From: Brachyspira hampsonii 30446 | GTDB lineage: Bacteria; Spirochaetota; Brachyspiria; Brachyspirales; Brachyspiraceae | Assembly (NCBI RefSeq): GCF_000316195.1 | Contig: NZ_JH994111.1 | Coordinates: 307,605-371,604 of the forward strand | DNA length: 64,000 nt | Direction of reading: 5' to 3' | Part shown: piece after piece, positions 4,277-12,342 of the stretch | How the letters are laid out: each line of letters starts with the position of its first letter | How positions within the stretch are numbered: the first letter of the stretch is position 1 | Program-made: the position numbers and the translations under genes | Notes under the pieces: generated by a model | Seen by the model: only the letters and a program-made list of their open reading frames with translations | Told to the model about the DNA's origin: nothing | Databases searched by the model: none

Positions 4277-4602
4277 AGACTTGTTTCAAAACTACTTGAC
4301 AATATTAATTATAAAAATTATTTAATTTTAAAATTACAGAGATGATGTTTTACATGTTGTACAAATTATTATTTTAGTATATAAATATACATCCTTTCAC
4401 CTGCCGTAGGCACACAAAGTGAGGCGTACTTCGTATGCTTCTCACCGCAGGCGGGCTGCCTGGGTCACCACCGAGTAGGTGCCTTGCAGAGCGGGCAGCA
4501 AAAGAAGTGGGGGGCCGAAGGCACGCAGAGCGTGGCAACGCAGTGTACTTCGTAGGGCTAGTCCCCACAAATTATAAATAAAATTACTTTTGAAACAAGT
4601 CT
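4277..4602. mobile_element. MITE-like element, family 1, copy A
   Basis: Terminal inverted repeats AGACTTGTTTCAAAA (4277-4291) and TTTTGAAACAAGTCT (4588-4602) are perfect over 15 bases. ATT precedes the left end and ATT follows the right end, consistent with a 3-bp target duplication. The left third is AT-rich and continues with ACTACTTGACAA as in the other copies. The core at about 4390-4565 is strikingly GC-rich, with tandem-like motifs such as GAGGCGTACTTCGTATG. No transposase is encoded, so it would be non-autonomous. Confidence 0.75.
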
Positions 4603-9819: not shown

Positions 9820-9910
9820 TTTTTTATATATTTTAATATTTTTATATAAATAAAAAATCACACTATAGTAAAATATTTTATAATAAATAATAAAATATTT
9901 TAATTTAATA

Positions 9911-9939
9911 TTGACAAAAACATCATATAAATATATAGT
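9911..9939 (+). promoter_or_regulatory. Promoter for the small RNA upstream of the Abi_2 gene
   Basis: TTGACA at 9911-9916 and TATAGT at 9934-9939 are spaced exactly 17 bases, among the best promoter matches in the window. Transcription would begin near 9946. Just upstream, two TAAAATATTTTA palindromes (9869-9880 and 9891-9902) can pair as a hairpin and could be the recG terminator or an operator. Confidence 0.75.
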
Positions 9940-9945
9940 TATATT

Positions 9946-9999
9946 AACAGTACCCCATGCACGTCACTTGATGATGTGGACCATTTGGGGACATTTTTT
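9946..9999 (+). ncRNA. Short structured RNA preceding an AbiF-like HEPN gene (candidate)
   Basis: From the predicted start near 9946, the RNA contains GTACCCC (9950-9956), which can pair with GGGGAC (9987-9992) around a bulged A. An inner stem GTCAC/GTGGAC encloses a loop of about 8 bases. A run of six T (9994-9999) follows at once, so the outer stem could act as an intrinsic terminator and give an RNA of about 54 nt. The layout of promoter, compact RNA and Abi_2 gene resembles the RNA motifs reported upstream of abiF/abiD-type genes (ARRPOF and related). That match is from memory of the layout, not a covariance search. Confidence 0.6.
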
Positions 10000-10014
10000 A
10001 TTTATGGTCATTTT

Positions 10015-10905
10015 ATGGATATAAAACATCCTTATAAATATGAAGAACAGCTTCAAAAATTAAAAGATAGAGGCTGTATTATTAATGATGATAAAAAATG
10101 TATATCTATACTTGAATCAGTAAATTATTATAATTTTAGTGCTTATTTTTTACCTTTCAAACAAAGTAACGGAAGTTATATTAATGGTACTTCATTTGAA
10201 AAAGTTTTTAATATTTATGAGTTTGATAGAAAACTGCATACTATATTATTTAATGCATTAGAAGAGATATATATTTTTATTCGTGCTAAAATATCATATT
10301 ATCATGTTCATAAATATGGAGCATTAGGATATTTAGATGAAACAAATTTTTATAATAAAAATGATGATTTAAAAGATATAAATAAAAAGATAGAGTATCA
10401 TAAAAAATTTATAGAAAACTTTAAAAGAGAAGTAAATAATAATAAAGTATTATTCGTTAAACATTATATAGATAAATATAATTCTAATTTTCCAATATGG
10501 GCAGCAACAAAAATATTTACTTTTGGTATGTTATCAATTTTTTTTGCTAATTTGAAATTAGAGGATCAGAAAATATTAGCAAAGGATATGTATAACATTA
10601 CGGCTTATAAATTAGAAAGTTGGCTTCGTTGCTGTACGGACTTAAGAAATATTTGTGCTCATCATGGAAGACTTTATTATAGAATTTTTCCATCTATTCC
10701 AAAACAAATGAATAATTTAGATAATAATTCAGAGAGAAAGTTATGGGGAGCTATATTATCAGTTAAAGAATTATATCCTTTTAAAGAAAAGTGGAATGAT
10801 GAAATATTACACAATTTTATTAATCTTATTGATGAATATAAAAATGATATAGATTTTGTTCACATAGGATTTCCAGAAAAATGGAAAGATTATTTAAAAA
10901 AGTAG
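10015..10905 (+). CDS. Abi_2 family (AbiD/AbiF-like) HEPN protein
   Basis: The product has 296 residues. The N-terminus (KYEEQLQKLKDRGCIINDD, then YYNFSAYFLPF) and the middle (FDRKLHTILFNALEEIYIFIRAKISYY) match the Abi_2 family of abortive-infection proteins. Residues 211-217 are RNICAHH, the R-x4-H motif of HEPN ribonucleases. Such proteins are thought to cut RNA or otherwise stop growth on phage infection. I choose the ATG at 10015 because it begins the conserved domain. A GTG-started frame from 9976 would run through the RNA hairpin. No Shine-Dalgarno is visible before 10015, so translation may be weak or coupled to the RNA structure. The gene stands alone between recG and a repeat, as expected of a defence cassette. 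Confidence 0.85.
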   Translation: MDIKHPYKYEEQLQKLKDRGCIINDDKKCISILESVNYYNFSAYFLPFKQSNGSYINGTSFEKVFNIYEFDRKLHTILFNALEEIYIFIRAKISYYHVHKYGALGYLDETNFYNKNDDLKDINKKIEYHKKFIENFKREVNNNKVLFVKHYIDKYNSNFPIWAATKIFTFGMLSIFFANLKLEDQKILAKDMYNITAYKLESWLRCCTDLRNICAHHGRLYYRIFPSIPKQMNNLDNNSERKLWGAILSVKELYPFKEKWNDEILHNFINLIDEYKNDIDFVHIGFPEKWKDYLKK

Positions 10906-10931
10906 TTATTATATTATGTAATTTTATTTAA

Positions 10932-12032: not shown

Positions 12033-12342
12033 AGATCTGTTGCAATTTTGTACGTACATATAGTGATATTATTATATAATAAATTTAAAAATAATATTTA
12101 TAGTTTTAATAATTGGGGCTTTGCCTACGAAGTACACAGTCGTGCCAAACCCCACTTCTTTTGTGACGCTGTCCGCCTTCGGTGTGGCACAAAGAAGCAA
12201 AAAGACTGCATTTTTATATCTTATTTGGATAAAATTATATTACATTTAAAACAAAAAATAATATATAAAACTACTATAAATAAAACTTATATTATATATT
12301 TTTAATCATAACTGTATAAAAATACAAAATTGCAACAGGTCT
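12033..12342. mobile_element. MITE-like element with variant ends, family 1, copy E
   Basis: The ends are AGATCTGTTGCAATTTTGTA (12033-12052) and its near-perfect inverse TACAAAATTGCAACAGGTCT (12323-12342). They differ from those of copies A-D beyond the first few bases. ATT flanks both sides (12030-12032 and 12343-12345). The core lies in the opposite orientation to copies A-D but is clearly the same module: TTGGGGCTTTGCCTACGAAG through AAAAAGACTGCATTTTTAT. Confidence 0.75.

Follow-up and report, generated by a model that had tools for sequence, protein, structure and literature searches.

One of the described AbiF systems is that of Clostridioides difficile phages. AbiFCd is a toxic protein, and its toxicity is abolished by mutations of R202 and H207; the RNA encoded upstream of it, RCd22, neutralises the toxin in cis and in trans, binds to the protein and co-purifies with it, and also lowers the amount of abiF transcript in cis (PMC12373285). 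A second system is PbAbiF-AbiFr of Prevotellaceae, for which one RNA per AbiF monomer is given in the accounts available through later papers (Zilberzwige-Tal et al., Cell 2025, via PMC12373285, PMC12737573, PMC12948488). AbiF has been proposed as the ancestor of Cas13 (PMC12373285, PMC12737573), and a review describes it as devoid of RNA-targeting specificity. Unrelated in the toxin, but with a comparable genetic organization, are the type III toxin-antitoxin systems (ToxIN/AbiQ/CptIN/TenpIN), in which an RNA antitoxin lies upstream of the toxin gene with a terminator in between, and inhibition takes place between RNA and protein (PMC12373285).

Here we analyse a locus of Brachyspira hampsonii 30446 (assembly GCF_000316195.1, contig NZ_JH994111.1) that resembles these systems. 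All coordinates are positions in the 64,000-nucleotide stretch of DNA that was analysed, which we call the window. As read from its sequence, the locus is formed by a promoter, a hairpin of two covarying stems with a T-run at its end, and an intact AbiF HEPN gene, which belongs to a clade always found with such an RNA (Table 1). The original prediction, an RNA-guarded abortive-infection cassette, is supported by the AbiF family membership of the protein, by the linked covarying RNA, by the nearest solved structure, which is that of an AbiF-ncRNA complex, and by the persistence of the RNA where abiF has decayed. We consider it highly probable that the locus is a toxin-antitoxin cassette in which AbiF is the toxin and the RNA the antitoxin, the hairpin of this RNA doubling as a transcriptional attenuator.

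Table 1. Features of the abiF locus in the window, with the basis of each assignment
Feature	Position	Strand	Basis
Promoter	9911..9939	+	-35 TTGACA 9911-9916, 17-nt spacer, -10 TATAGT 9934-9939; sequence
abiF-type RNA (AbiFr-like putative antitoxin), about 54 nt	9946..9999	+	Predicted start AACAG to T6 run; covariance model and covariation
P1 5' arm CCCCA, outer stem	9953..9957	+	Pairs with 9986-9990; covariation
P2 5' arm CACGTCA, inner stem	9960..9966	+	Pairs with 9972-9978; covaries within Brachyspira
P2 3' arm TGATGTG	9972..9978	+	Pairs with 9960-9966
3' bulge GACCATT	9979..9985	+	Alignment position of CAAAUC in RF03085 and of UCCCA in Bacillota relatives
P1 3' arm TGGGG, ACA and T6 (9994-9999), terminator-like RNA end	9986..9999	+	Sequence; T-run conserved in homologues
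abiF gene, 296 aa, predicted Abi_2/HEPN ribonuclease-type toxin	10015..10905	+	PF07751, PADLOC, 8VZ6 match, AF2/Foldseek

The assignment of the protein is supported by several lines of evidence. The reading frame matches PF07751 (Abi_2) with 170 bits and E 8.4e-50, against a cut-off of 25.6 bits, and PADLOC classes it as AbiD (1.6e-95); the predicted R-x4-H motif is there as RNICAH, residues 211-216, with R211 and H216 at its ends. By sequence, the only meaningful relative of solved structure is 8VZ6 (E 2.5e-23), the entry of the PbAbiF dimer bound to ncRNA. The same entry is the single significant Foldseek match of the AlphaFold2 model (pLDDT 93.7), with E 2.1e-12, TM 0.79 and 24% identity. 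PbAbiF shares with the window protein the Abi_2 HEPN fold, the RNxxxH motif and an associated small ncRNA, at a sequence identity of only 24%. Along its full length, the window protein has 37.5% identity with the AbiF of phage phiC2, which is itself 99.88% identical to AbiFCd. As for the start of translation, a GTG at 9976 given by the open reading frame listing was rejected because its frame is not conserved in relatives such as L005, where it is out of frame; this codon also lies inside the RNA. No Shine-Dalgarno sequence was found by a crude test at -18..-4 of the ATG at 10015, as had been predicted, but this is unremarkable since the test finds none for 20 of the 34 long reading frames of the window either. 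Control of translation by way of a missing Shine-Dalgarno sequence finds no support.

The RNA has the main elements anticipated for it, namely the promoter, whose TTGACA is identical in all 9 Brachyspira homologues compared, a nested hairpin, and a T-run that ends 15 nt before the ATG. The inner stem has to be redrawn, however: the GTCAC/GTGGAC pairing originally proposed is about 5 kcal/mol worse than CACGUCA/UGAUGUG, which moreover covaries. In order to evaluate the structure, homologous AbiF loci were gathered from 150 genomes around the species of the window, from a wider collection of genome contigs and from viral contigs. RNA rows were cut by motif, and a covariance model, R1, was built from a register-checked subset of the alignment of window-subtype RNAs. 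In the 25 register-checked rows, 98.6% of the pair cells do pair (90.6% after shuffling), with 18 double-changed cells against 5.1 expected, which is far better than in any slid register. The 43 model-aligned rows (42 distinct relatives), an alignment that is itself fitted to the structure, give 97.4% paired cells versus 88.6% for shuffled ones, changes on both sides in 8 of 9 pairs, and 34 double-changed cells versus 8.7 expected. The comparison of the stems within Brachyspira, which had been put forward as a check, also revealed compensatory changes: 92.6% of cells pair in these 9 sequences (87.6% shuffled) and 6 cells are double-changed against 1.8 expected. R1 matches the window at 9945-9998 with 63.3 bits and E 7.8e-10, a score to be read knowing that this RNA is in its training set. 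Because the covariance model and the covariation support it, the hairpin is, on sequence grounds, an RNA beyond chance.

Upstream of abiF genes of this clade the hairpin follows a common plan, with a leader CAGgAC, P1, a junction, P2, a variable loop, the 3' bulge and P1', after which comes ACATTTTT. The loop of Bacillota RNAs is typically CACCUCUCAACGAUGUG; in place of the CUCU...GAU internal loop, the Brachyspira RNAs have a continuous helix. The P2 stem of L009 closes on UUUU, and this RNA is about 43 nt long. We think that the 3' bulge is likely a protein-contact element, by analogy with the bulge of AbiFr (PMC12737573).

The relation to the abiF RNA family of Rfam, RF03085, deserves a closer description. 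It had been proposed to search the region with ARRPOF and abiF-linked RNA models; at E <= 10, Rfam gave just chance matches for the region and for the 81-nt hairpin, with no abiF family among them and no Rfam family on the hairpin, a negative that takes in ARRPOF if it is among the families searched. RF03085, whose gathering score is 37 bits, thus leaves the window RNA unmatched. At E <= 1 it also fails to match the subtype relatives L005, L009, L010, L034, L036, L043, L044, L051, L058, L062, L076 and L078. Conversely, it does match L011, L069, L086, phiC2 and an RNA of an Exiguobacterium plasmid, L147. The topology is the same on both sides: two nested stems, P1 and P2, with 1-2 nt between them on the 5' side, a variable loop and a 3' bulge of ~6 nt before P1', all upstream of an Abi_2 gene. 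The differences lie in the bulge, CAAAUC in RF03085 and GACCAUU in the window, and in the CUCU loop, where Brachyspira has its continuous helix. Since the intermediates L147, L069 and L086 match both R1 and RF03085, we count the window RNA as a divergent abiF RNA, with R1 and RF03085 as the ends of one family as far as sequence comparison goes.

The RNA subtype of the window coincides with one AbiF protein clade (support 100/99). When five RNA classes, assigned by eye, are placed on the protein tree, they require 6 changes, the minimum being 4 and the average of shuffles 34.6. The expectation of a compact version proper to spirochaetes holds only in part: the subtype occurs in Spirochaetota and also in Bacillota, Fibrobacterota, Planctomycetota and phages, whereas the exchange of the internal loop for a continuous stem is found in Brachyspira.

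At the level of the chromosome, promoter, RNA and abiF follow directly after recG in 8 of 26 Brachyspira genomes. The window region 9820-10905 was set against the corresponding loci of six Brachyspira genomes with an empty site (L088, L092, L093, L095, L100, L103); in L088, the first base after recG aligns to window base 10906. Because these genomes keep the right flank after recG without RNA and abiF, the cassette is, by this alignment, a separate unit that is either present or absent at a site next to a housekeeping gene. AbiFCd-RCd22 differs in sitting in a prophage lysis module. Elsewhere in the window, the intergenic stretch 12110-12230 (GGGGCTTTGCC...CACAAAGAAGCAAAAAGACTGCATTTTTA) resembles a dispersed repeat; similar sequence lies after recG in L106 and L110. 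On the minus strand, 4374-4568 is listed as a related reading frame.

The association between RNA and toxin is asymmetric. In 345 Spirochaetota genomes R1 finds 19 RNA sites, and a protein profile finds 10 intact AbiF genes of the window clade, all 10 with the RNA. Five further RNAs lie before abiF remnants (L117, L122, L126, L128, L129), three have no AbiF (L133, a strong match, and the weak L132 and L135, with E 0.0025 and 0.005), and that of L134 precedes another AbiF. In a second scan, of 391 genomes from the class to which a Roseburia relative belongs, the 14 RNA sites comprise 8 with AbiF, 1 with a remnant (L150) and 5 without, so that over both scans 6 RNAs adjoin abiF remnants and 8 stand without abiF. 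A window-clade toxin without the RNA was not seen among the intact genes, while the RNA without a toxin is tolerated, which is what would be predicted for an antitoxin. The solitary RNAs of L133 and L117 have promoter-like sequence upstream and no intact abiF nearby; it is possible that they are stand-alone antitoxins against an AbiF encoded elsewhere. RNA control does not seem universal in Abi_2 proteins, because a distant Clostridia clade (L059, L060, L061, L064, L065, L068), with intact RNICAH and proteins starting VKPAR.(Y/F)EEQA, has no recognisable abiF-type RNA within its loci. Its members would be either RNA-independent or under a different antitoxin.

For the mode of action, we favour the following sequence of events. 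Most transcripts would end at the T-run, so that the RNA of ~54 nt is released and antitoxin is in excess, and occasional read-through would provide abiF mRNA and toxin, as suggested by the sequence and by the C. difficile homologue. Very probably, judging from the characterised relatives, the small RNA binds AbiF and keeps it inactive. The later steps are taken from the homologues: the RNA would hold the AbiF dimer, one molecule per monomer, through its stems and the 3' bulge, and would block the RxxxxH RNase site. Once the supply of RNA is lost, probably by phage infection or transcription shut-off, AbiF would be freed to cut cellular RNA, leading to growth arrest. Antitoxin hairpin and attenuator would then be one structure. 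The C. difficile system has the same succession of promoter, upstream RNA, terminator before abiF and read-through; RCd22, however, carries two abiF motifs and a separate terminator in about 100-130 nt, whereas in the window a single motif is the terminator itself.

It could be argued that the only role of the hairpin is to restrict transcription into abiF, and that it never works on the protein as a separate molecule. Its T-run lies directly before the reading frame and the C. difficile RNA does reduce the abiF transcript in cis (PMC12373285), but a terminator alone needs no conserved CAGgAC leader, P2 or 3' bulge, the RNA of the homologous system is active in trans and purifies together with its protein (PMC12373285), and RNAs with promoter-like upstream sequence outlast a lost or decayed abiF in L117 and L133. 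We regard such a purely cis-acting role as improbable. Still less credible is an ordinary terminator, or a decayed relic, beside an unrelated frame. The folding of the single sequence (-16.7 kcal/mol) is only modestly better than that of shuffles, with z -2.0, which would suit this reading, but the compensatory changes, the conserved promoter, the intact reading frame and the strict linkage across phyla do not.

The original prediction also allowed that the RNA might guide the protein to a target RNA in a Cas13-like manner, an idea with some appeal if AbiF is the ancestor of Cas13. We find this hardly tenable: the RNA lacks a variable segment of the spacer kind; its two arms and its bulge are conserved between genomes; it is single-copy and not part of an array; and the reviewed lack of targeting specificity of AbiF also speaks against it. 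CRISPR-Cas13 (type VI) combines a spacer-bearing array with two HEPN domains in a single protein, against one spacerless hairpin and a 296-aa protein with one HEPN motif here. The tandem-repeat antitoxin array of type III systems, whose toxins are unrelated, was not found either, R1 giving one credible match in the window and one in the genome. Compared with these rivals, we retain the RNA-antitoxin cassette as the best explanation.

That the RNA class might be known already was rightly suspected: this kind of system was characterised in 2025 and its RNA family is in Rfam, and the window holds a divergent member, not a new kind of system. The subtype may already be present in the Cell 2025 data of Zilberzwige-Tal et al. 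What is added here is an RNA subtype that the Rfam model does not capture, its match to one protein clade, a remodelled compact form in Brachyspira and a present/absent chromosomal site. As RF03085 misses this subtype, which occurs in at least four phyla as well as in phages, it undercounts AbiF systems. Moreover, the one-to-one match of protein clade and RNA subtype offers natural pairs for testing antitoxin specificity, the window provides a minimal putative antitoxin whose fold would be the attenuator too, and in Brachyspira an AbiF cassette occupies a fixed site of the chromosome.

Rather tentatively, and with somewhat less than even confidence, we suggest that the RNA of the window belongs to an AbiF RNA subtype of its own, not catalogued until now, which evolved together with a single AbiF clade, without cross-neutralisation between subtypes. 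If this were true, orthogonal AbiF-RNA pairs would coexist in several Brachyspira genomes, and the smallest natural AbiF antitoxins would be found among the Brachyspira RNAs. Some Brachyspira genomes have two or three AbiF genes that belong to different clades and are each accompanied by an RNA type of their own (L007/L028/L030 in G003, L009/L026 in G021), which makes them a natural test of orthogonality. The RNA types in these genomes are ACCCCC..GACCAT versus CCGCAGGGCTT..AGCTCACTCTGCGG, with GGCTT..AGCTCACT as a further label for a Brachyspira type other than that of the window; the reading frames of L028 and L030 are truncated.

Two RNAs of this type were seen next to other genes. In L154 the RNA (1501-1552, 43.7 bits) is followed by an RNase H1/RnlA-like HEPN toxin gene pair (PF01693, PF00075, PF19034) with no abiF. 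A wider role of abiF-type RNAs, as partners of other HEPN toxins too, was considered and rejected, and the L154 RNA is probably a relic, since L162, a 62% identical relative, and four further RnlA loci have no such RNA. In L159, also without abiF, the RNA (1501-1554) lies shortly upstream of a RhuM-family gene (PF13310), which PADLOC lists as candidate defence PDC-S05.
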